Shown here: positions 8,821 to 48,048 of the stretch, in pieces
Layout of the letters: each line of letters opens with the position of its first letter
Numbering within the stretch: position 1 is the first letter of the stretch
Source: a virus
Virus record (IMG/VR): IMGVR_UViG_3300046167_000328
Location: 1 to 58,776 of that record
Reading direction: 5' to 3' (one strand)
Length of the DNA: 58,776 nt
The notes under the pieces: generated by a model
Database searches by the model: none
Told to the model about the DNA's origin: nothing
Seen by the model: the letters and a program-made list of their open reading frames with translations, nothing else
Program-made: the position numbers and the translations under genes

Positions 8821-10377
8821 ATGTCAGACAAAATAGTCAAAAACCTAAATTTCGGGGAAGACGCCAAGAATACGGTGTTTAAAGGAATAGAAAAACTAAC
8901 AAAAGCTGTAAGTTCTACTTTAGGAGCTAGTGGTAAGTGTGTAATACTAGAAGATGGTGGTGGTAGGCCTGTTATAACAAAAGACGGTGTAACAGTAGCT
9001 GATTCAATAGTGTTGTTGGACCCTGTAGAAAATATGGGTGCTACACTTTTAAAAGAAGCTGCTAGAAAAACAGTTAAAGAAGCTGGTGACGGTACAACAA
9101 CCGCAACTGTCTTAGCACACTCCATACTTAAGCATGCTTATAAGTTAGATAAAAACTATAACGATAGAGATTTAAAGAACGGCATAAATAACGCTGTTGC
9201 TAAAGTTGTAAAATACTTAGAAAAAAACTCTATACAAGTGACAGGTGATATGATCGACTCTGTAGCTACAATTTCAACAAATAATGATCCTAATCTAGGT
9301 AAGGTTATAGGAGATGCTTTTAGAGCAGTTGGAGAAACTGGAGTTGTTATGATGGAAAAAACTAGTGACTCTGAAACCTATGTAGATATTGTTGACGGTG
9401 TACAATACGATAAAGGAATAACAAACTCTAATTTTGTAACTAATAAATCAACAAAAGAAGCTATACTTGATAATCCATTAGTATTACTAGTAGATTCACC
9501 AATTGATAGCATTAGGCAAATACAATCAGTACTAGAATATGTTATTAAAAACAATAAATCATTATTAATTGTAGCTGACATAGACCAACCAGTTCTATCC
9601 GCTTTAGCGATGAACAAGGTAAAAGGTAATATAAAAGTAAACGTTATTAATGCACCTACTTTTGGTATTAACAAGAAAGACACTTTAATTGACTTATCAA
9701 TGTTAACTGGAGCTACTATTATAAATGAAGACCTTGGAGATGATTTAGATTTAATATCAGTTGATAAACTAGGTGAATGTGTTAAGAGTGTAACAGGAGA
9801 ACAAGACACTATAATACAAATAAAAGAAACACCTGAAGAAGTAAATGAGCTTATTATCAAAATTAAAGAACAGCTTGAAACTGAAAAATCTCCTGCAAAC
9901 GTTATACGACTTGAAACTAGACTTGCACGTTTATCTGCTAAGGTTGCAATTGTTAAGGTTGGAGCGAATTCAGACATTGAACTTAAAGAAAAGACAGATA
10001 GAGTCGAAGACGCAATCTGTGCTACAAAAGCCGCAATTAAAGAAGGTATAATTCCAGGAGGAGGTATTGCACTACTCAACGCGTCTACATATATAAAGGC
10101 TAAAAATAAAGGTGAAGAAGTTTTGCTAGAAGCTATAAAAGCTCCTTATGAAACTATTCTATCAAACGCTGGTTTAGAATTGGTTTATCCTGATAAGAAA
10201 AATAGAGGGTTAAACGTGGTTACAGGTAAAGACGTAAATATGGTACGAGCTGGTATTATAGATCCATTACTGGTTACTAAAAGCGCTTTAAGAAACGCGG
10301 CTTCAGTAGCAACTACTATATTATCTACAGATTGTGTAATTAATAACTTAAGAGTTGGAGATGAAAGCAATAGGTAG
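8821..10377 (+). CDS. groEL: Phage chaperonin GroEL (Hsp60)
   Basis: A 60-kDa ATP-dependent folding ring subunit, 518 residues (bacterial GroEL is about 548). The ATP-binding GDGTTT motif lies near residues 88-93 and the PGGG motif near 411-415. The equatorial N-terminus (KAVSSTLGASGKCVILED) also matches. The Gly-Gly-Met C-terminal repeats of bacterial GroEL are absent and the protein stops at RVGDESNR. groES overlaps its 3' end, so subunit and cap are translated together. Phage chaperonins usually fold capsid or tail proteins; here the capsid operon follows on the same strand. Confidence 0.93.
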   Translation: MSDKIVKNLNFGEDAKNTVFKGIEKLTKAVSSTLGASGKCVILEDGGGRPVITKDGVTVADSIVLLDPVENMGATLLKEAARKTVKEAGDGTTTATVLAHSILKHAYKLDKNYNDRDLKNGINNAVAKVVKYLEKNSIQVTGDMIDSVATISTNNDPNLGKVIGDAFRAVGETGVVMMEKTSDSETYVDIVDGVQYDKGITNSNFVTNKSTKEAILDNPLVLLVDSPIDSIRQIQSVLEYVIKNNKSLLIVADIDQPVLSALAMNKVKGNIKVNVINAPTFGINKKDTLIDLSMLTGATIINEDLGDDLDLISVDKLGECVKSVTGEQDTIIQIKETPEEVNELIIKIKEQLETEKSPANVIRLETRLARLSAKVAIVKVGANSDIELKEKTDRVEDAICATKAAIKEGIIPGGGIALLNASTYIKAKNKGEEVLLEAIKAPYETILSNAGLELVYPDKKNRGLNVVTGKDVNMVRAGIIDPLLVTKSALRNAASVATTILSTDCVINNLRVGDESNR

Positions 10378-24483: not shown

Positions 24484-25242
24484 ATGGCTATAAACGTAGA
24501 CAAAGTATATAAGACCGTTTTGTTGATATTGAATAAAGAACAACGTGGTTATATGACTCCTGATGAGTTTAATAAAACAGCTACACAAGTTCAGCTTGAT
24601 ATATTTGAACAATATTTCGACGACTTAAATCAGCAGCTACGTGTACCACAAGCAGATTTTGACTATAGTAATAGGCAGACTGATATAGATGACAAAATAT
24701 CAACATTTAAATGTTTAGGCCCCTGTGCTACTGTTGGACCAAACGTGCCACCTTTTAATCTACCTATTGTAGATAATTTAACAGGTACAGCTATAGTTTA
24801 CGATGATACTCCTAATGCTAGTGAGTTTGCTTTTTATAGACTAGGTACTGTCACTTATGATGATATAGAAGTTCAAAGACTTCAAAGAGTTGAGTTTTAT
24901 AATATAGATAAATCAGATTTAACTCTTCCTAGCGAAAACTTTCCAGTATATCTTTATGAAAGCGGTAAGCTGAATATAAAACCTCCAACAATACAAACCG
25001 ATGTAGAAGCAACTTTTCTTAGAAAACCTAAAAATGTTATTTGGAATTTTCAAATACCTACTGGTGAAAACTATTATGAATACGTAGCCGCTGGTTCACA
25101 AGATTTCGAATTACATTCTTCAGAGCAAGTGGATGTTATAACAAGAATACTACTATACGCTGGTGTGGTTGTTAAGGATTACCAAATAGTTCAATTAGCC
25201 TCTAAAGAAATACAACAAAATGAAATAAATCAAAAAAGCTAA
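24484..25242 (+). CDS. Tail adaptor/ring-like protein, copy 2 (252 aa)
   Basis: Begins MAINVDKVYKTVLLILNKEQ. Paralogue of the 239-aa protein at 23117-23836, collinear along its length but with a Pro-rich insertion around residues 80-100. Likely an adaptor or ring protein between portal and tail. Part of the tandem duplicated block. Confidence 0.7.
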   Translation: MAINVDKVYKTVLLILNKEQRGYMTPDEFNKTATQVQLDIFEQYFDDLNQQLRVPQADFDYSNRQTDIDDKISTFKCLGPCATVGPNVPPFNLPIVDNLTGTAIVYDDTPNASEFAFYRLGTVTYDDIEVQRLQRVEFYNIDKSDLTLPSENFPVYLYESGKLNIKPPTIQTDVEATFLRKPKNVIWNFQIPTGENYYEYVAAGSQDFELHSSEQVDVITRILLYAGVVVKDYQIVQLASKEIQQNEINQKS

Positions 25243-26393: not shown

Positions 26394-29300
26394 ATGGCTG
26401 AGATTAAAAATACTTTTCTAAAATCCAAAATGAATAAAGATTTGGATGATAGGCTTATACCTAATGGAGAATATCGTGATGCGCAAAACATTTCCGTTGG
26501 TAAATCAGAAGATGCTGACGTAGGTGCGTTAGAAAACATCATAGGTAACTCCACTATAACTGAAGAACTACCTATAGGATATGCTAACTTTGGTGAGATT
26601 ATAGGGTATTTTTCGGACAGTACAAACAATAGGATAATAACTTTTGTAACAAACTATAAAGACCCAAATCCCTCTAGCCCAACTTATTTATCAATTGCTA
26701 ACACTTATAGCCCATCAGGTGATTTTCCTTTGGCTGGAAATTACAAGTCTCACATATGTGTATACGATCAAGACAACCCAGGGTATGTTATAGTAGTTTC
26801 TGGAGATTTTTTAAATTTTTCTACTACGAACAAAGTTTTAGGCGTTAGCTTGATAGAGGACTTACTGTTCTTTACAGATAATAGAAATCAACCTAGAAAG
26901 ATAAACATAAATTTAGCATTAAGTAATTCCAATTACTACACTACCGAAGACACAATATCCGTAGCTAAATACAGTCCTTATGAAGCTATAAGTTTATTAA
27001 AAAAGGTGACTAAAAAAACAACATCTGCCGCTGTTGGTAGCTCTACTATTAATGTTGAAGATACTGACGGAATAGAAGACGGAATGTTTGTTGTCGCTAA
27101 AAACGTAGATAATGTAAATGCTATAGAAGGTTCTGATTTTGTAACTGTAGACAGTACAACTGCCACAACCGTTAATTTAGTTACTCAAGAAGGAGCTACT
27201 ACAGTGCCTGTAGCTTACAATGCTGATATAAGTGACAATGGAATTGTTACTTTTTTAAAATCAACCATGACTAAGGAAGATCCTGCAACTGGTTGGCCAG
27301 GTGACCCTGATCTACTAGAAAGCAGGTACGTAAGATTTTCATATAGATTTAAGTTTGATGACGGAGAAAATTCTATAATGGCTCCTTTCACTCAAATAGC
27401 TTACGTTCCTAAGAAAAAAGGTTATTTTAGAGATGGTGATGAAGATGCTTCTTATAGATCTACCATATTGGAGTTTATGGAAAACGAGATGAACAACATG
27501 GAATTGTTGATACCTCTACCATCTAAAGGAGTTAATCTAGAACAAGAATATAAAATAACAAACCTAGAGATTTTATACAAAGAGTCAGACGCTCTAACTG
27601 TTAAGGTTTTAGAGACGTTACCCATAAGTAGTATACCTTCTTCTGAACTACAAACAAACATATATTCTTACCAGTACCAATCAAGAAAACCTTACAAAAC
27701 TCTGCCTGAATTTGAGACTACTAGAGTTTACGATAAAGTACCTGTTAGAGCCCTATCTCAAGAGACTTCTGGTAATAGAGTTATGTATGGTAATTTCTAT
27801 GATAGATACTCTTCACCCAATTCAATTGACTATTATGTTGGTGCTTTTTCTAAAGAAACTGTCAACTTTGATTCATGGGTAGAATATCCAAATCACACAG
27901 TAAAGCAAAACAGAAATTATCAAGTTGGTTTTATTCTTGCTGATAAGTTTGGTAGACAAACTCCAGTAATACTCTCACCTGTAGATCTAACCTCTCTAGA
28001 CACTGGTAGTAGTGATTTTGTAGGTGGTTCAACTATCTACAATCAATACTATGATGGAAGCACCCAGCCGGTAATTAGAAATTGGTTTGGCGACGCTATA
28101 AAAGTTGTTGTTCAAAACAAAATATCAAATGGTGTAAACGACACAAATAACTTAACACAAGCAGGTCTTTATGCTATTCAGTATCAAGATAGTGCAGCTA
28201 GCGGTATAGGTTTTTCTATATCTTCATCTTCATTGAATAGTTCACAAGATCAATTAACGTTTAACTTAGATTCAAATAACCCAGATAACACCAGTATACC
28301 TAGGGTAGGTGATTATTTAAGAGGTGAATATAGAGATTACGTTAAAGTTACTTCTGTGACAGGAACAATTTCATACACTGCAACAGCTGATGGATCTATA
28401 AGTAAAAGCTATTTACATAAAGATAATCTAACCAATGATATAAAATTTGCTTATATAATAAACCAAGTTGGTTGGTACTCTTACAAAGTTGTTGTAAAGC
28501 AAACTGAACAAGATTATTACAATTGTTATCTACCTGGAATACTTGATGGGTACCCTGACCACACTGGTACTAGTCCTTACCCTAGTAACGAAGATGGTAA
28601 AACTGCTCATGTAGTTTTATTAAATGACAATATAAATAAGATACCTAGAGATTTATCTGAAGTTGGTCCAGATCAAAAACAATATAGAAGTTCTGTGCAG
28701 CTATTTGGTAGAGTTGAAAATAACTCTGGAACATCTAATACGCAGTATTTTCCAGGATCTTCAACAGATACAGCCTCTACAATAGCCACAGCTAATGACT
28801 TAAACATGAGCTTTACCGAGGTAGCTAGTGTTGATAATTTCTATCAATTAGATACAAATCCTCTAATAGCTAGAATATCTACACTGCAACAATCTATAGG
28901 TGTTACAGAAGCTGATATGCTTCCTTTTTTAGCAGTTTATGAAACAGAACCAGTAAACTCTTTATTAGATATATTTTGGGAAACAACTACAACTGGTTTA
29001 ATCTCTGATCTAAACGAAGATATATTAACTGGTTCGGATGCCCCAGTTGGTTTAACAGCTATAAATTTTGAGTTCAATGAGAACCAAAACCCTAATGGTC
29101 TTGGAAACACTACAGGTGCAGCTGACTCTCCATGGATAACTGATTATTTCTATCCACTTTCACCGGAAGGAGCTCAATTAATAGACACTGGACAACCCAA
29201 TCTAACGGTTACAGATAATACCCCTAATACTTTAGACTTTTTTGATATATACCAAGAACAAACTACAGGTGACCCAAACTTCGGTGCTTATAGAGTTAAA

Positions 29301-30887
29301 ATAAATAATAACTATTTAACTTATTTCTCTAACTCGTTCAATATAACCGATACCTATAATTTCTCTTTATCTATAGTTGATAGTGATAGCAATGCTATTA
29401 CTTTTGATTTTACAGGTTCTTTAACTAACATTCAACCTTTTCTTTCGTCTACAACTCCACCAACTTTAACGCCGTCACCACAGGTATTGCCGTTGTTAAC
29501 TACACCGTTTTACGAAGCTCTTGATCCTAACGCTAGCTTCTCAATTGGTAACGTTGGGTTGCCGGCTAATGGATCGTTGAGTCTTAGTAACTTTGGTACA
29601 CAAACAGCTGCGTTTTTAGAATCTGTACCTCCTCCTTACACATTTTTTGGAATGCCTTATTCTACTATTTTGATAAACTCACAAAATGGAAATATCTCAT
29701 GGGGAGGTTTAAAACTCGAAGGCTATTATGAATCTCAAGTAAAAGTAAAAGATGCTTTAACGAGTTATCAAACTACTGGAGGAATATCTTCTCAAGGTGT
29801 TGAGTCAGCTGGAACGTTGACAAGTATAATATATGATCAACCAATAAGAGTTGTACCTGCTGCTTGTAATTTATCTACTAGCTGCCAAGTAAGCGATATT
29901 ATTGGTGGACAAAGAAGTCAAGTGTTTAATCAAGGAAACAACAATGAGTCTTCATTTGGTTGGAGATTTGGCTCACCTCTAGGTGGACTGCCTCCTGGGT
30001 TTGTAGCTACTCAAAGTAATGTTCAAAGTGTATCTTTTGACGGTTTACAATCTGGTACGGTATTGTTTGATTTGATGGTTCAAGCTAGCAAAACTAGTGG
30101 CCTTAATTGTAAAGCTTTATTTAGATGGAGAATATGGAAGAGAGCTAACAGTGGTAGCACTTGGACTACTATGGGCGTTGTAAGTACTAATAGTGTTGAT
30201 TTAAACTCAGACAATGGTAATGTCGGTCTTGGCGCAGGATGGATAGCACCTGCTCAAAGTACTAGATTTACATGTACTAACATTAACCTTGGTACTAATT
30301 CTCAAATACACATACCTATAGCTTTAACACAAAAAGCAGAATACTTTATAGAGTGTAGAGGTTATAGAATAGGTACAGGTGTTGCAGAGTGCTGGATAAA
30401 TGCTGGTGATGCTAATTACCCTACATGTGTTCCAGTCAAAGGCATTAATTTGATAAGTGGTACTGGTAGAGACGCTGATTATTTTCAGTACACAGCAGCG
30501 CTTTTTTCTTCTACTACAGCTCCAAATTCCTGTGCTGCGGCTTTATCTGAAACTGTTTACACTAGAACTCCATACACGCACGTTGTAGAACAATTTTTCT
30601 CAGACACGGCATTAACTACTGGTCAACTAATTGGTTCTTCGCAAACTGATTACACCGCTTATGGTTACGCACCTGATGCTTCAACTACAAACGGTAGCGA
30701 TATAGCTAGTATATATAATGCAAAAGTTATAAGTGTTGTAGATGATCCAAATGATGGTAGAACTAGAAGAGGTTTTATTGAACCTTTTAGTGGTTCAGGT
30801 ATTGGTTCAACTAAAAGACAACCTTGCCTCACTAGCGGTACTTATCAAGACCTTAGATACAGGGTATACTACAATGAAGACTATTAA
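26394..30887 (+). CDS. Large tail nozzle/stabilisation-like protein (1497 aa)
   Basis: Begins MAEIKNTFLKSKMNKDLDDR; the opening block (DLDDRLIPNGEYRDAQNISV followed by SEDADVGALENIIGN) is typical of the tail stabilisation/nozzle proteins of podovirus-like and crAss-like phages (T7 gp12-like role). After about 600 residues of propeller-like repeats there are Ser/Thr/Gly-rich beta domains and a Cys-containing C-terminal third that may be exposed and bind host surface. Much longer than T7 gp12 (794 aa), so nozzle and fibre-like parts may be fused. Confidence 0.75.
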   Translation: MAEIKNTFLKSKMNKDLDDRLIPNGEYRDAQNISVGKSEDADVGALENIIGNSTITEELPIGYANFGEIIGYFSDSTNNRIITFVTNYKDPNPSSPTYLSIANTYSPSGDFPLAGNYKSHICVYDQDNPGYVIVVSGDFLNFSTTNKVLGVSLIEDLLFFTDNRNQPRKININLALSNSNYYTTEDTISVAKYSPYEAISLLKKVTKKTTSAAVGSSTINVEDTDGIEDGMFVVAKNVDNVNAIEGSDFVTVDSTTATTVNLVTQEGATTVPVAYNADISDNGIVTFLKSTMTKEDPATGWPGDPDLLESRYVRFSYRFKFDDGENSIMAPFTQIAYVPKKKGYFRDGDEDASYRSTILEFMENEMNNMELLIPLPSKGVNLEQEYKITNLEILYKESDALTVKVLETLPISSIPSSELQTNIYSYQYQSRKPYKTLPEFETTRVYDKVPVRALSQETSGNRVMYGNFYDRYSSPNSIDYYVGAFSKETVNFDSWVEYPNHTVKQNRNYQVGFILADKFGRQTPVILSPVDLTSLDTGSSDFVGGSTIYNQYYDGSTQPVIRNWFGDAIKVVVQNKISNGVNDTNNLTQAGLYAIQYQDSAASGIGFSISSSSLNSSQDQLTFNLDSNNPDNTSIPRVGDYLRGEYRDYVKVTSVTGTISYTATADGSISKSYLHKDNLTNDIKFAYIINQVGWYSYKVVVKQTEQDYYNCYLPGILDGYPDHTGTSPYPSNEDGKTAHVVLLNDNINKIPRDLSEVGPDQKQYRSSVQLFGRVENNSGTSNTQYFPGSSTDTASTIATANDLNMSFTEVASVDNFYQLDTNPLIARISTLQQSIGVTEADMLPFLAVYETEPVNSLLDIFWETTTTGLISDLNEDILTGSDAPVGLTAINFEFNENQNPNGLGNTTGAADSPWITDYFYPLSPEGAQLIDTGQPNLTVTDNTPNTLDFFDIYQEQTTGDPNFGAYRVKINNNYLTYFSNSFNITDTYNFSLSIVDSDSNAITFDFTGSLTNIQPFLSSTTPPTLTPSPQVLPLLTTPFYEALDPNASFSIGNVGLPANGSLSLSNFGTQTAAFLESVPPPYTFFGMPYSTILINSQNGNISWGGLKLEGYYESQVKVKDALTSYQTTGGISSQGVESAGTLTSIIYDQPIRVVPAACNLSTSCQVSDIIGGQRSQVFNQGNNNESSFGWRFGSPLGGLPPGFVATQSNVQSVSFDGLQSGTVLFDLMVQASKTSGLNCKALFRWRIWKRANSGSTWTTMGVVSTNSVDLNSDNGNVGLGAGWIAPAQSTRFTCTNINLGTNSQIHIPIALTQKAEYFIECRGYRIGTGVAECWINAGDANYPTCVPVKGINLISGTGRDADYFQYTAALFSSTTAPNSCAAALSETVYTRTPYTHVVEQFFSDTALTTGQLIGSSQTDYTAYGYAPDASTTNGSDIASIYNAKVISVVDDPNDGRTRRGFIEPFSGSGIGSTKRQPCLTSGTYQDLRYRVYYNEDY

Positions 30888-30922: not shown

Positions 30923-32266
30923 ATGTCAGCAACTTTAGAAGTAAAATATTTCAACTCTTTTTGGATAAAGAAGATAAAGTCAATAGTTGATGCTGCGGAT
31001 AATGTCGTAGAAGACTTAATTCCAGGTGCTTACGCTTCTAGTGATGACAACGATTGGTATATCGAAGAAGCTAGGATAAGAGGCGGTTATAATAATACTT
31101 CTGTAGATTTTGGAGTAAAAGCTTATTTAGTTGAAGAAAATAACCAACAACAACATAGATTTAACTCTATAATATACTCTGGTGTATTTAACTCTAGAAC
31201 TGGTATAAATAGAACTAACGTTTTTTCAGTAGGCGAAGATATAACTAAATCTGCGGATCCTGCTAACGGATCTATACAGAAGCTTTATGCTGAAGACACT
31301 AATTTAATAGTTTTACAAGAAGATAAAGTTAGTAGAGCTTTAATAGATAAAGACGCTATATACTCCGCTGAAGGAAATAGAGCTATAACATCTTCTACAC
31401 AGGTGATAGGAGAAATAGTACCTTATGGTGGTAAGTATGGTATAAGTGATAACCCAGAGTCTTTTGCTGTTTACGGTTATAGAAAGTACTTTACTGATAG
31501 AAAAAGAAATGCTGTTTTAAGGCTGTCTATGGACGGTATAACTGAAATATCATCTTATGGTATGCAAGACTTTTTTAGAGACAATCTAGGTAACTTAAAT
31601 TCATCAGATAATATAATCGGTGCTTGGGACATACATAATAAAAACTATGTAGTATCTATACAAAGAAATAGCGGAGGTGGTAACGGTTACCAAACATTGA
31701 ATTTTGATGAAAGTGTAAACGGTTGGACTAGCTTCTTAAGCTTTGAGCCTGGGTTTATGTTTAGCTTGAATACAGCTTTTTATTCTACTCACCAAGGTAA
31801 GATTTGGCAACATTATACTTTTGATAATCAACTTAGGAGAGCAATTTTTTATGGCGTGATATATCCGTCTTCTGTTGATTTTGTTTTTAACTCTAATCAA
31901 TCATTAGTTAAGAACTTTAAAACAATAAACTACGAAGGTAGTATAGACTGGCAAATGGATTCAATGCAAACTTCATCTGATAGTGCTCTACCTATATCTA
32001 AATCTATAAACATACTTACACAAGCATCGAATTTACAAGATCTAGAAAATCAACTACTACGTAACAACTTTAAAGCAAAAGAAGGTAAATACTTTGCAAA
32101 TATTATAAACAACAGTGTATCTAGAGCTGGTGAGGTTACATGGGGCCAGTCTAGCTCAGGTATTAAAGGTTTCTTCGCTACAGTTTCAATGAGTGTTGAT
32201 AATAATTTACCTGGTAAAAAAGAATTATTCGCCGTTTCTACTGAATACGTAGAGTCGTCATATTAA
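30923..32266 (+). CDS. Tail protein following the nozzle (447 aa)
   Basis: Begins MSATLEVKYFNSFWIKKIKS. Beta-rich with propeller-like motifs (LYAEDTNLIVLQEDKVSRAL, YGISDNPESFAVYGYRKYF, GAWDIHNKNYVVSIQ). These resemble the second half of T7 gp12-type nozzle proteins, so the 1497-aa and 447-aa proteins may be a split nozzle. Acts in the short tail. Confidence 0.65.
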   Translation: MSATLEVKYFNSFWIKKIKSIVDAADNVVEDLIPGAYASSDDNDWYIEEARIRGGYNNTSVDFGVKAYLVEENNQQQHRFNSIIYSGVFNSRTGINRTNVFSVGEDITKSADPANGSIQKLYAEDTNLIVLQEDKVSRALIDKDAIYSAEGNRAITSSTQVIGEIVPYGGKYGISDNPESFAVYGYRKYFTDRKRNAVLRLSMDGITEISSYGMQDFFRDNLGNLNSSDNIIGAWDIHNKNYVVSIQRNSGGGNGYQTLNFDESVNGWTSFLSFEPGFMFSLNTAFYSTHQGKIWQHYTFDNQLRRAIFYGVIYPSSVDFVFNSNQSLVKNFKTINYEGSIDWQMDSMQTSSDSALPISKSINILTQASNLQDLENQLLRNNFKAKEGKYFANIINNSVSRAGEVTWGQSSSGIKGFFATVSMSVDNNLPGKKELFAVSTEYVESSY

Positions 32267-32687: not shown

Positions 32688-33419
32688 ATGGGATTAGTAA
32701 CCGCAGCTGTAGTAGGCGCAGTAGGATCAGCTGTAGGTGCTGCTGTTGGAGCTAGTAAAGCTAAAAAAGCAGCAGGTAGAGCTAGAGACGCAAAAGCAGC
32801 AGCTGAAGCAGAGCTAAACACTTTAAAAGCTGGTAGACAAACAGTTATAAATCCATATGAGTCAACAACTGACTTATCTGGTTTAGCATCTGATCTATCT
32901 AGCTCACTATCAAACCCTTTTGCGAGCCTTGGTGTTGCAACTCAAGCTGCTGAGATACAAATAGAACAAGCTGATATAGCTTTAGCTAATACGTTAGACA
33001 CGATAAGAGCTACAGGATCAAGTGCCGGTGGAGCAACTGCGTTAGCGCAAGCGGCTTTAGCTAGTAAGAAAGGAGTGGCAGCAAACATAGAACAACAAGA
33101 AGCTCAAAACGAAAAACTAAAAGCTCAAGGAGAGCAGCAACTTCAAGCTCAAAAAATGTCCGAGCAACAACGTTTACAAAGTATTGCTATATCTGAAGGC
33201 CAAAGAGTTCAAGCTGCTGATGCTGCTGGTAAGCAATTTAAGTTTCAAGCTCAAGAAAACAGAACTAATGCTGATATGGATAGAGCAGCTGGTGCAATAT
33301 CGCAAGCCCAAGCTCAAGAGGCACAAGCTAACCAAGCTCAAGCGAGCGCTATAGCTGGAGGTATTTCAGCTATTGGAGGTATAGCTTCTAGTGCTATAGG
33401 AGCATTTGGAAAAAAGTAG
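32688..33419 (+). CDS. Internal virion protein, Ala/Gln-rich (243 aa, 274 aa with -1 frameshift)
   Basis: A hydrophobic Gly/Ala/Val N-terminus (VVGAVGSAVGAAVGASKAKK) is followed by helical Ala/Gln-rich coiled-coil sequence and a second hydrophobic Gly/Ala/Ile segment near the end. This resembles ejected core proteins such as T7 gp14, which form a channel in the host envelope. The ORF ends GGA AAA AAG TAG; A AAA AAG is the classical -1 slippery heptamer, and a -1 shift would extend it 31 codons to TAA at 33509-33511. Confidence 0.7.
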   Translation: MGLVTAAVVGAVGSAVGAAVGASKAKKAAGRARDAKAAAEAELNTLKAGRQTVINPYESTTDLSGLASDLSSSLSNPFASLGVATQAAEIQIEQADIALANTLDTIRATGSSAGGATALAQAALASKKGVAANIEQQEAQNEKLKAQGEQQLQAQKMSEQQRLQSIAISEGQRVQAADAAGKQFKFQAQENRTNADMDRAAGAISQAQAQEAQANQAQASAIAGGISAIGGIASSAIGAFGKK

Positions 33420-33511
33420 AGGCTCCGGCAACAGGTAAGCCCTCATTTAAAATGATAGACGTAACACAAGACTTTGGGCTTGATGATAATTATGGAACAA
33501 GAGTTAGTTAA
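33410..33511 (+). promoter_or_regulatory. Candidate -1 programmed frameshift site and extension
   Basis: A AAA AAG at 33410-33416 is directly followed by TAG, the dnaX-like arrangement. The -1 frame encodes VEAPATGKPSFKMIDVTQDF and 11 more residues, then TAA. A possible downstream stem (AAGCCC 33437-33442 with GGGCTT 33476-33481) has a long loop, so stimulation is uncertain. An A6-tract sequence error would look the same. Confidence 0.55.
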
Positions 33512-33523
33512 AAATAAAAAAAT

Positions 33524-35243
33524 ATGAGTTATAGAAATCCACCTATAATCGTAGATAGATCTACAGACGTTTGGGGAAAAGCAATAGCTGGTTTTGGGCA
33601 ACAAGTTGCTCAAGGAATCTTAAGTGTTAGCGAAGCTAGGAAGAAAAGCGGAAGCAGCTCAAGCAGCTCAAGCTAGAAAAGAAGCTCTTGCTCAACAAAA
33701 GCTAACAACAGCTACTAGAGCATCTTATATGGATGCGGCTAGGGATAAGTACATTCAAATCAAAAAAAATGGTGGGTTAAGCTTAGCTCAGCAATTTATG
33801 AAGCAAGTTGAAATTGATTTAAATGGTGCTGATGGAAAACCAGGGGCTATAGATGCTTCTGTTCAATTAGCTTTAAATACTAGTTTAGGTACAGACCAAA
33901 GAAAAGAGTATAATAAAATAGTAGATGGCGCTAAAATGTATCAAGCTGAAGCTGTTAGTGGTTTTGCAAACGTTATGTCTGGATTAGATTATGCAAAAGA
34001 AAAAGGTGATGATATGCAAACAAAACCTGGAGGTTGGACTTATAAAGGAGGTAATAAGAAGGAAAGATTTTCTAATCAATTATTACACTATGCACTTGAT
34101 ACAGATGTGATGATCAATGATGATGTTATAGAGGACAGAAAGACGTATAAAGGTAAAGAAGGAGAAATATTTGTAGAGGGTATAACATTAGTTCCTGTAG
34201 AACAGTTTAATGAAGGTGGTACTTTTGCGGAAACATTAGATGAAGGTGAATTGAAAGATGTAGAAAAAGTCACTAAAGGAGATAAGGTTTATTATAAATT
34301 TTCTAGCAAAAAAGACGTAAGACAGTGGGATGGTGAGCTTGTAACAGATATTCCAGCTTTACCAGACTATTCTAAGGTTTACCAAGAGGTTAATGTAGAA
34401 AATGATAAGGGTTCTGTAAATACAAACCTAGTAAGTGAAATTGAAAGAACAGAAGGTGGTTACGATGTTAAAGAGAAAATATTAGACATTGGCACTATAA
34501 GAAATAACTTAGAGTCAGTTATGAGCGGTCAAGCTAGTAGAATAATGGCGGGTTCAGATCAAGAAATTCAAGCTTTCCTTACTTTTGGATTAGAAAAAGG
34601 TGGTATGACTATCAAGAAATTCAATGAAACTGAGCAAGATCCTAGTAAAAGAGTAGAATATATAAAAGATGCATTGATAAATGACTCTATTAATAAAAAA
34701 TTCTCAAGTGAATTTGGTAGCACTAGATTAGCTACCGTTGAAGATGTTGAAAGGATAAAAGCAGCTAACCCTAGCTCTACAATAAAAGTAGGTCAAGAAA
34801 TTAGATTTAGCATAGATAAACAAAGTAAGGTTGAACCAGAAGAAACAAGTGAACCAACACAGTTTGAAATAAAAGTAGAAGATGCAATTAAAATAGCTCC
34901 AGAAACACTTGAAAATATGACATCGCCTAAATCTGTAGGTGCTTACTATACAAACAAAAAAATTGGAGGAAAAACTATTATTAACGCAAGAATAAAAACA
35001 TCGACTTCAGAAGTTAAATCACAAGGTAAAACTCCAAAAACACTAGAGTTAGATTTTGTATCAGGATCTACCACTGCCGGAGGTGAAAGAACTGAATTTA
35101 CAGACACTATGAAGTTTGATTTAAATAATCCAACTAGAGTAAAGACGTTGATAGATCTACTTCCTGATAGCGATATCTTAAAGAAACAGTTAAAAGATTT
35201 ATTAAACAAAAAATCAAAGAACGTTAACCAAGATTTTAACTAA
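33524..35243 (+). CDS. Structural/internal virion protein with a frameshift near residue 41
   Basis: ATG 33524 opens MSYRNPPIIVDRSTDVWGKA and continues to about EARKK, then runs into a Ser repeat and stops at 33676. The next frame continues the same protein sensibly (KAEAAQAAQARKEAL...) to 35243. A skip of one A in the AAAA at 33644-33647 would fuse them into about 572 residues. The long part is Lys/Glu-rich with a helical N-terminal third (to about residue 130) and a beta-rich centre. It precedes the giant internal protein; an ejected core protein (T7 gp15-like position) is plausible. Confidence 0.65.
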
Positions 35244-44896: not shown

Positions 44897-46615
44897 CTAG
44901 CCATCACAAGCTAGACAATCTTCATTCATAGCTTGCTGAGCTATATCACCGCGTAAAACAGATTCAGTTCTAGTATAATACAAGGTTTTAACGCCTTTTT
45001 TCCAAGCATCAAAATGAACTTTGTTTAACCACTTAGGCGTAGCCTCGGATGGAAAAGCTAGATTCAAACTAACTGACTGATCTATATACTGTTGTCTCAG
45101 ACCCGCTTGATTAACTAACTCTAATTGATTAATTTCTTTAAAAGTTTTAAAAACCTCCTTAGCAGGTATGTCATGTAGTAAAGTAACATTATCGAGAGCA
45201 TCGATACCCTGTACACTACCTCCGTCAGCCAATATTTTATCCCATGTTTCATTGTTGTTTATTTTAAGCTTTCTTAACAATTTAACTAGCGTCGGGTTTT
45301 TCCTAATGAAAGTCCCCTTCGCACTCTGCTCTGTAAAAACATTCGCGGCCCAAGGCTCAATACCTGGACTAACATTACCGCTAAGCTTGCTATTACTGAC
45401 AGTAGGAGCGATAGCCCTAAGATGAGTGTTACGCATACCCGTACCAACACACCAAAGAGGTTCACCATAAATTTCAGCAAGATCCCTAGAGGCTCTTTCA
45501 CTTTCGATCTTAATCTGGCTAAATATTTTCCTTGTTTCAAACTGAGCAAGTAAACCTTCAAAAGGAATGCTCTTTTCTTGGAGATATGTGTGCCATCCGA
45601 GTACACCCAAACCGAGTGCTCGTCCTTTTTGAGCAGAACGAATGGCATTTTCAAAACCTCTAAGTCCTTTTGCTCTTTGAATAAACTCCTCCATAACGCC
45701 GTCAAGAAACCACGTGGCGTCGTATATAAGGTTAGTGTCTTTCCATTCTTCATATTTTGCTAAATTTAATGATGACAAACAGCAAACAAAACTGTGATTC
45801 TCATCTGTTGTTAATGTTATTTCAGAACATATATTAGTCATATGCACCTTTAATCCGTTGTCTTTATATGCTTCTGGATTTGCTTTGTTAACATTTCCTT
45901 TAAACATAATATACGGTTCTCCAGTTGCTTTTCGTTTTCTAAGTAGTTTACTCCATCTAGATCTTGCGTCCTTATCTCCTTGTTCAAGCTTACGCATAAA
46001 CTTGTCACCAATAACTGCGCACTGATGAAGATTAAGCGATTGTCTGTTAACATCCCCTTTAGGTTCCCTGATTTCAAGCCACTCCTCGAAGTCATCATGT
46101 TCAATGTTGATATTAACTGAGGCAGCTCCACGACGGACACTCCCTTGATTAGTTGCAAGAATTGTTGAGTCATATATCTTGCAGAAAGGTACGACTCCGT
46201 CTGATGTTCCATTACCTGTAATTCTAGCGCCGGCGGGTCTGATTTGATTTATACCGATACCTACTCCACCGCCATGCTTAGCGAGTAGCATCATCTCTAG
46301 ATTTTTTTGTCCTATGTCTTGTATAGAGTCAGCAACGTCGATACCAAAGCAACTAATAGGAAGACCGCGATCTGTACCAGTATTGGAAAGGACAGGAGAA
46401 GCAAGACAAAGCCAACCATTCCAAATATAATTAAAAAAGGTTTCAGCCATCTCCGGCTTATAAAGTCTACGAGCAACTGTTTTAGCGACTCTTTGGTATG
46501 CCTCTCTAGGCGTTTCTCCGTCAAGTAAATATCCCCCGGATATTGTCTTCTTGTATACGTCCGTATTACCCCACGTAGGGTAATCTTCTCCTTTGATCCA
46601 TTCATTGTTCCACAT
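44897..46615 (-). CDS. nrdA: Class I ribonucleotide reductase, large subunit
   Basis: 572 residues, reduces ribonucleotides to deoxyribonucleotides with NrdB. Active-site pattern: C89 in PISCFG; N261, C263 and E265 in NICSEITL; C278 in FVCCLSS (spacing 15 from C263, as in eukaryotic R1); the YYTRTES motif carries the radical-transfer tyrosines; and the C-terminal CLACDG supplies the CxxC thioredoxin-type pair. There is no N-terminal ATP-cone domain, so dATP feedback inhibition is probably missing. G+C is higher than in its neighbours. The start overlaps the upstream 58-aa gene as TAATG. Confidence 0.92.
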   Translation of the reverse strand: MWNNEWIKGEDYPTWGNTDVYKKTISGGYLLDGETPREAYQRVAKTVARRLYKPEMAETFFNYIWNGWLCLASPVLSNTGTDRGLPISCFGIDVADSIQDIGQKNLEMMLLAKHGGGVGIGINQIRPAGARITGNGTSDGVVPFCKIYDSTILATNQGSVRRGAASVNINIEHDDFEEWLEIREPKGDVNRQSLNLHQCAVIGDKFMRKLEQGDKDARSRWSKLLRKRKATGEPYIMFKGNVNKANPEAYKDNGLKVHMTNICSEITLTTDENHSFVCCLSSLNLAKYEEWKDTNLIYDATWFLDGVMEEFIQRAKGLRGFENAIRSAQKGRALGLGVLGWHTYLQEKSIPFEGLLAQFETRKIFSQIKIESERASRDLAEIYGEPLWCVGTGMRNTHLRAIAPTVSNSKLSGNVSPGIEPWAANVFTEQSAKGTFIRKNPTLVKLLRKLKINNNETWDKILADGGSVQGIDALDNVTLLHDIPAKEVFKTFKEINQLELVNQAGLRQQYIDQSVSLNLAFPSEATPKWLNKVHFDAWKKGVKTLYYTRTESVLRGDIAQQAMNEDCLACDG

Positions 46616-46791
46616 TATGTTAAATATAATATTATGTAAGCTATTGCTACGTTTAAATTAACTGCAACTAAATTCCACTGCTTAGCTACAAATACTTGTG
46701 GTATTGATATTACACCTGCTATTACATATGTAATCATACCTACTTTATCGGGTAGTAAATGAGGACTCATCATCATAAATGAAGTCCCCAT
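46615..46791 (-). CDS. Small membrane protein between nrdA and the 79-aa gene (58 aa)
   Basis: Start placed at ATG 46791 (MGTSFMMMSPHLLPDKVGMI), 10 nt after the upstream stop; a longer reading from 46893 would overlap 92 nt of the previous gene out of frame. Two hydrophobic helices (about residues 17-33 and 39-57) joined by VFVAKQW. A small integral membrane protein in a nucleotide-synthesis operon; role unknown. Confidence 0.6.
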   Translation of the reverse strand: MGTSFMMMSPHLLPDKVGMITYVIAGVISIPQVFVAKQWNLVAVNLNVAIAYIILYLT

Positions 46792-46801
46792 ATATCCTAG
46801 T

Positions 46802-47041
46802 CTACTCGAAAGTCTTTCCACTGGTGTCAGCTTCTTCTGTCTCACCAGATTCTGCAGCCACTTTTTCTTTAAGCTTTTCGATAGCTTGTTCATAACCTTC
46901 CATATTTTTAATTGTTTCTAATGTACCTATTGATAGATCTTTTAAATGAGATAATTCATTTATAACTTGCTGAATAACATTAGTTGCAGCAGCCATACGT
47001 TTCTCTAAGTTATCTAGCCTACTCTGTTTTTGTCCGTTCAT
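46802..47041 (-). CDS. Small coiled-coil protein between nrdB and nrdA (79 aa)
   Basis: Begins MNGQKQSRLDNLEKRMAAAT. Heptad-like helices through residue 65 with an acidic tail (SGETEEADTSGKTFE). It starts about 38 nt after nrdB. No family recognised. Confidence 0.6.
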   Translation of the reverse strand: MNGQKQSRLDNLEKRMAAATNVIQQVINELSHLKDLSIGTLETIKNMEGYEQAIEKLKEKVAAESGETEEADTSGKTFE

Positions 47042-47079
47042 ATAATTGTTTTTCTATTTCTTTTTGTGTTATATCTAAA

Positions 47080-48048
47080 TTACCATATGTCTTCAAAGTC
47101 TTCTCCTTCGTTAGCTTTTGAATAATCCGTTGGCCTAATAGCGAAAAAATCAGTATGAGTGACGCCCCCGGTAAGATGATAAAACCAATCAAGATTACTC
47201 GCCGCCTTACTGTCATATGCGAAGTAGTTACCCAAATCGACGTAACCAAGTTCAACAAGTTTTTCATTTGCTCTCTTTTTTATAAAATGCTTTAAATCAT
47301 TCGCTGCAATGCCTTCAATGTCACCCATCTCAAACATCTTATTAATATACTTCGTCTCTAAAGATACCATCGTTTCAGCAGCTTTTATAACGTCTTCTCT
47401 ACATAAATGTAACAGTTGATCGTCTTCTTCACACATATGTCTGAACAATCTACAACCCATTTTACTATGCAAAGATTCATCTCTTACTGACCACTTCATC
47501 TGTTGCCCAATACCTTTAAGCAGGTTTCTAAGCTGAAAAGAATAAAGTACCGCAAAAGCAGAATATAAAGAAACTCCTTCGGCAAATGCAGAAAATACAG
47601 CAAGAGACTTAGCAATACCAGTTCTACTGTTGCCAGTATAAGATACAAGATTATCAAATCTATCTGCTGTAGCAGGCTCGTGTAAAAACGCTTCATAGTC
47701 TTCTAGTTTTAAAGTCTCATTCAAATAGCTATAAGCAACCGCATGTATTGTCTCTTGCGAGCCAAACATCATTGCCATTTGCTGGATCTCGTGTTTCGGA
47801 AACCATCCAACAACTTTCTGAGTCCAATAGTCGGACACTGCGCATTCTGTCTGAGCAAACCCAAGTAGAATGTTTCCGACGAGGTGTTTTTCTTTTTCTG
47901 TAAGTTTTTCATTCCAATCTTTTATATCGCTTTGCATTGAGATCTCTGTATGTAACCAAAATGCTTGTGCTTGTTTTAACCAACCCTCAGTATAATACTC
48001 AGGATATTCAAACGGCTTATACGCTATGCGCTCATCAAATAATCCCAT
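47080..48048 (-). CDS. nrdB: Class I ribonucleotide reductase, small (radical) subunit
   Basis: 322 residues. The diiron/tyrosyl-radical site can be traced: E68, E99 and H102 (QETIH), Y106 (ExxHxxxY radical tyrosine), E157, E191 and H194 (RDESLH). The spacings E68-E99 (31) and E157-E191 (34) equal those of E. coli D84-E115 and E204-E238. The first ligand is therefore Glu rather than the Asp of E. coli, as in some other class I subclasses, while the radical Tyr is kept. The C-terminal EGEDFEDIW tail would dock on NrdA. It overlaps the upstream 50-aa gene by 1 base. Confidence 0.92.
   Translation of the reverse strand: MGLFDERIAYKPFEYPEYYTEGWLKQAQAFWLHTEISMQSDIKDWNEKLTEKEKHLVGNILLGFAQTECAVSDYWTQKVVGWFPKHEIQQMAMMFGSQETIHAVAYSYLNETLKLEDYEAFLHEPATADRFDNLVSYTGNSRTGIAKSLAVFSAFAEGVSLYSAFAVLYSFQLRNLLKGIGQQMKWSVRDESLHSKMGCRLFRHMCEEDDQLLHLCREDVIKAAETMVSLETKYINKMFEMGDIEGIAANDLKHFIKKRANEKLVELGYVDLGNYFAYDSKAASNLDWFYHLTGGVTHTDFFAIRPTDYSKANEGEDFEDIW

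Follow-up and report, generated by a model that had tools for sequence, protein, structure and literature searches.

The question raised by this locus is whether translation always ends at the stop codon of a 243-aa gene, or whether a fraction of the ribosomes continues into a second open frame that begins at the same point. The window analyzed here is the whole stretch of DNA, a virus record of 58.8 kb. The ribosome in this virus very probably slips back by one base at the end of the gene. The reading favored for the locus, with a probability of roughly 0.9, is that of a programmed -1 ribosomal frameshift, located at the 3' end of a gene whose product would be an internal virion protein of the cargo/ejection type. 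The features of the site are summarized in Table 1.

Table 1. Features of the putative frameshift cassette in the window
Feature	Position	Strand	Remark
Zero-frame ORF, 243 aa; short form of a putative cargo/ejection-type internal virion protein	32688..33419	+	
-1 slippery heptamer A AAA AAG, in zero-frame phase	33410..33416	+	G GGA AAN at this place in most signal-bearing homologues
Zero-frame stop TAG, adjoining the heptamer, within the spacer that leads to the hairpin	33417..33419	+	
-1-frame extension, 31 codons and TAA (33509-33511)	33416..33511	+	codons 33416-33508
Predicted 3' stimulatory stem-loop, -7.3 kcal/mol	33419..33444	+	weak in the window (p=0.063), strong across the family
AGGAG, possible internal Shine-Dalgarno-like stimulator	33398..33402	+	doubtful; 7 nt upstream of the heptamer; not a feature of the family

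The end of the ORF (GGA AAA AAG TAG), the phase of the heptamer and the coordinates were rechecked in the sequence and are as the sequence-only reading had them. The same reading had the -1 frame open for 31 residues up to a TAA, and its peptide and coordinates were correct. The extension peptide of the window is VEAPATGKPSFKMIDVTQDFGLDDNYGTRVS, within which lies MIDVTQDFGLDDNYGTR; the predicted fusion product has 274 aa. Between the zero-frame stop and the ATG of the next gene (33524) the gap is 104 nt, which is reduced to 12 nt once the extension is counted. The remaining intergenic gaps in the gene cluster from position 24484 onward measure 0-35 nt, and the gap sizes at this site are locally unusual. 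Taken on its own, the window does not lift the pattern beyond chance, because heptamers of the type X XXY YYZ are common in frame (138 in 48 ORFs, with five lying no more than three codons from a stop), 9.3% of dinucleotide shuffles yield a -1 frame as long or longer, and the hairpin 3' of the heptamer reaches only p=0.063. These window-only statistics would be compatible with a random heptamer that happens to precede a stop and a fortuitously open -1 frame, and a decision had to come from homologues (see below).

The gene lies in a podovirus-like module, with portal, muzzle and cargo genes around it. The portal gene matches Flavobacterium and Cellulophaga podoviruses, and the virus probably infects Bacteroidetes-type bacteria. 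The terminase and structural genes of the window fall in PHROG families. The genes are arranged in the order muzzle, small gene, 243-aa gene, 539-aa gene and 2705-aa gene, and the upstream 447-aa gene carries the crAss muzzle C-terminal domain (PF25729). Positions 1-184 of the structural protein family phrog_14478 (1474 positions) are matched by the 1497-aa ORF at 26394-30887, and positions 921-1265 by the 447-aa ORF at 30923-32266; as two ORFs match separate parts of one family, the muzzle-type gene appears to be split in two relative to phi38:1. Elsewhere the window encodes a GroEL-like chaperonin at 8821-10377 (phrog_5725, E 7e-134) and, on the minus strand at 44897-48048, the large and small subunits of ribonucleotide reductase. 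No tRNA genes were found in the window. In the gene that follows the 243-aa gene (33524-33676 / 33624-35243), one G near 33639-33640 that the 94%-identical contig L002 lacks breaks the reading frame. L003-L005 have this ORF uninterrupted; as only the window record shows the break, it probably stems from faulty assembly or sequencing, or possibly from a mutation.

The 243-aa protein itself is probably of the cargo/ejection type. It is syntenic with gp099 of the Cellulophaga phage phi38:1, which is annotated as a virion structural protein and to which it shows a weak profile match, and it has weak homology to Gundel gp072. The earlier designation as an internal virion protein is reasonable in view of the gene order and the weak homology to phi38:1 gp099. 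These phage isolates were reached through their portal and muzzle genes; a tblastn search of annotated phages with the 243-aa protein gave no match. Profiles from PDB, Pfam and PHROGs likewise gave no match, the weak PDB hits being designed repeat proteins. The AlphaFold model is nearly all-helical but of low confidence (pLDDT 67, pTM 0.32) and too poor for a fold search. In crAss001 the muzzle, cargo 1 (C1, gp45), cargo 2 and giant RNA-polymerase-associated proteins are encoded in this order (PMC10172136), which the order in the window resembles, and the 243-aa gene sits, like that of C1, after the muzzle and before a second cargo gene and a giant protein. Members of the T7 gp14 ejection protein group measure 181-240 aa (PMC8954989); the 243-aa protein is similar in size and helical by prediction. 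Unlike crAss001 C1 and T7 gp14, it has no match to solved structures, Pfam or PHROGs.

Relatives were sought in IMG/VR and in bacterial genome contigs by similarity of the gene body, not by the site, and gave a set of 186 distinct genes with a visible stop. The heptamer G GGA AAN occurs within the last three codons in 22 of the 186 (0.09 expected from the gene-body rate, p 3e-45). A -1 frame of 20-60 codons follows the stop in all 22 of these and in 22 of the 164 homologues without G GGA AAN (Fisher p 1e-16); in the former the extension is 25-49 aa long. The latter include members with A AAA AAG (the window, L002 and L193), with T TTG GGG (L348), and with an extension retained behind a degenerate site (L043, L064 and L233); the rest resemble the next gene read out of frame. 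Two candidates were removed from the frameshift set: L235, where the apparent extension belongs to the following gene in another frame, and L394, separated from L391 by a one-A indel (A9/A10). The majority of the homologues carry no frameshift signal, and the cultured relatives phi38:1 and elemo have no room for an extension between the genes; the signal is thus dispensable across the wider group. Its recurrence in about 25 related viruses marks it as a genuine control element rather than a fortuitous run of A. Once homologues are compared, the pattern of heptamer and extension appears far beyond chance, and with conservation and enrichment across the family a coincidence at this site deserves hardly any credence.

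The comparison across the family supports the sequence-only reading in its main point, a programmed -1 frameshift. The term dnaX-like holds for the heptamer in the window; it fails as a family rule, which is G GGA AAN with a 3' hairpin. Downstream coding in homologues, which that reading had suggested looking for, is present; in most cases G GGA AAN precedes it and it is read in the -1 frame. It had also asked whether homologues encode the extension in frame; a similar in-frame tail is clear in L391 and weak in L364 and L145.

The extensions themselves carry a coding signal. The peptides are alike across divergent members (35 ordered pairs at E<=0.05, best 3e-20), as exemplified by the homologous peptides SSQLADTFKVTNPLFQ and SSQLAETFKVTNPLFQ. 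Pooled pN/pS is 0.48 over eight pairs, and differences at codon positions 1/2/3 number 95/70/123 over ten pairs, with L006 entering two of the comparison pairs. The pair of window and L002 has only six differences and an omega of about 1.5, with no signal of selection. Across the family, the downstream -1 frame is conserved as coding sequence. In L016, L080, L231, L356 and L384, an in-frame C-terminus with the pattern DRRLK...IYSFEY...GVMSDE stands where others frameshift; it resembles the S74 endosialidase chaperone (L016, PF13884, E=0.0046, below the curated cut-off).

An indel would produce a similar picture: one longer true ORF from which a base of the A tract is missing or to which one has been added, be it by assembly error or in a decayed gene. 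The sister contigs L391 and L394, with A10 and A9 at the junction, do carry the tail in frame and in the -1 frame, respectively, and the private 1-nt insertion near 33639 in the next gene implies that the window assembly can carry indels. At the site itself, L002 agrees exactly with the window in the A6 tract, the stop and the length of the extension, which makes an A5 or A7 sequencing error unlikely. In upwards of 20 contigs the slippery sequence is G GGA AAN instead of a long homopolymer, with stop and hairpin arranged alike. The short forms of the frameshift members extend 47-64 residues past the conserved anchor, like most relatives that make the short form alone. An indel is thus a very unlikely source of the extension.

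Gene packing points to a different purpose for the same mechanism. The median distance to the next ATG is 108 nt from the zero-frame stop and 13 nt from the extension stop, a spacing of about 13 nt being found in nearly all members. The frameshift could be real and serve mainly the coupling of translation to the next gene, the tail peptide mattering little, which would be compatible with the favored reading. Relatives that do not frameshift nevertheless have the same median spacing of 13 nt, and the tail peptide is conserved and occasionally encoded in frame, so that coupling as the main purpose is considered unlikely.

Programmed frameshifting also finds support in the RNA. The 30 nt that immediately follow the heptamer were folded in 30 members (L394 still included) and compared with shuffles of the extension, and the native sequences are the more stable (mean z -2.6, Stouffer about -14); a first look had used 50-nt folds, which gave a modest signal, and the length of 30 nt was settled on afterwards. 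Some of the members are not independent of one another, and the true significance is somewhat lower than the pooled z suggests. The excess persists against synonymous codon shuffles in the -1 frame (28 members, Stouffer -10.9). The profile of 30-nt fold energy has its minimum exactly at the heptamer. The first base pair lies 0-6 nt, mostly 2-5 nt, behind the heptamer, and the hairpin persists between members though the stem sequences differ. For the family, these folds argue for an RNA structure that stimulates slippage from a position a few nt behind the heptamer. Rfam holds no known element that matches at the site. AGGAG is found 7 nt upstream of the heptamer in the window and in L002; elsewhere it is mostly absent or differently placed, and an upstream Shine-Dalgarno stimulator was rejected as a feature of the family.

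The long form could in principle arise by transcriptional slippage on the A tract instead of by ribosomal frameshifting, as tracts of A6 or longer are present in the window and a few relatives. This is extremely unlikely, given that the G GGA AAN of most members contains just three or four A's and that a folded RNA element lies directly 3' of the site.

The frameshift signal is scattered over a 184-tip tree, with at least 22 changes of state; this is a quick tree from a short protein. In 6-8 of the supported independent pairs on the tree the extension accompanies the heptamer, and no pair shows the reverse. The signal seems to be switched on and off repeatedly in the family.

Programmed frameshifting at this site would proceed as follows. 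Ribosomes would arrive at A AAA AAG (G GGA AAN in most relatives) and be held there by the hairpin a few bases downstream. For the majority, translation would end at the adjoining TAG, with the 243-aa short form as product. In the others both tRNAs would re-pair one base back, and a further 31 codons would be read to give the 274-aa long form, which has a tail added at its C-terminus. The long form would end 12 nt short of the next start, a position that may help to couple translation to the next gene. Both forms may enter the virion, where the tail might act in docking or ejection of the cargo complex. What the comparison shows is the site, the extension, the excess of hairpins, the conserved coding, the gene packing and the recurrence; slippage in the host and its efficiency are inferred.

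Among known systems, bacterial dnaX has a stop close to its heptamer and a Shine-Dalgarno-like stimulator upstream, and its frameshift yields a truncated cellular polymerase subunit. The window shares with dnaX the heptamer A AAA AAG and the stop close by, and it has an upstream AGGAG that is doubtful as a stimulator; unlike dnaX, most family members use G GGA AAN and have no upstream Shine-Dalgarno-like motif. In lambda, the gpG/gpGT products serve tail assembly and are not part of the mature virion. With these genes the family shares a -1 frameshift in tailed phages and a heptamer of the same type, G GGA AAN: G_GGA_AAG and G_GGA_AAC are shift-prone heptamers used in lambda-like gpG/gpGT-type genes (PMC5009743). 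Neither a family match nor a shared gene context was found between lambda-type tail assembly chaperones and the 243-aa protein. In T7 gene 10 (10A/10B) and the T3 capsid gene, a -1 frameshift adds a C-terminal extension and gives two products (PMC5009743). The locus resembles them in that a gene of a probable virion protein would give two products by a -1 frameshift and a C-terminal extension. The T7/T3 frameshift sits in the major coat protein, whereas the protein here is probably of the cargo/ejection type; the slippery site of T7 belongs to the intermediate G_GU type and works with a long-range 3' element, whereas a canonical heptamer with an adjacent hairpin is found here. The T7/T3 capsid frameshift appears to be the closest functional parallel and the lambda-type G-T genes the closest parallel for the heptamer.

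The mechanism itself is textbook -1 frameshifting; it is for the protein class that no prior report was found. A review of ejection proteins does not contain the word 'frameshift' (PMC8954989), and searches confined largely to open-access papers brought up no case of frameshifting in an ejection or cargo protein. The locus might represent an undescribed class of phage frameshifting, in which an ejection (cargo) protein is made at a set ratio of short to long form, the tail tunes docking or ejection, and the cassette is an evolvable on/off switch; this wider proposal is tentative, with a little less than an even chance of being right. In this proposal the C-terminal tail of the long form is swapped, fused in frame or lost between relatives.

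Frameshifting in tailed phages is well documented for tail chaperones and for coat or tail-shaft proteins. Unlike in these cases, the protein that carries the site here probably enters the host by ejection. If the two C-terminal forms are indeed made at a set ratio, this would give a testable handle on how the cargo complex docks and leaves the virion. The family also offers a natural series (short form only; short and long form by frameshift; long form in frame) in which gain and loss of the signal can be studied. In every genome with the cassette, ordinary gene callers would truncate the tail.
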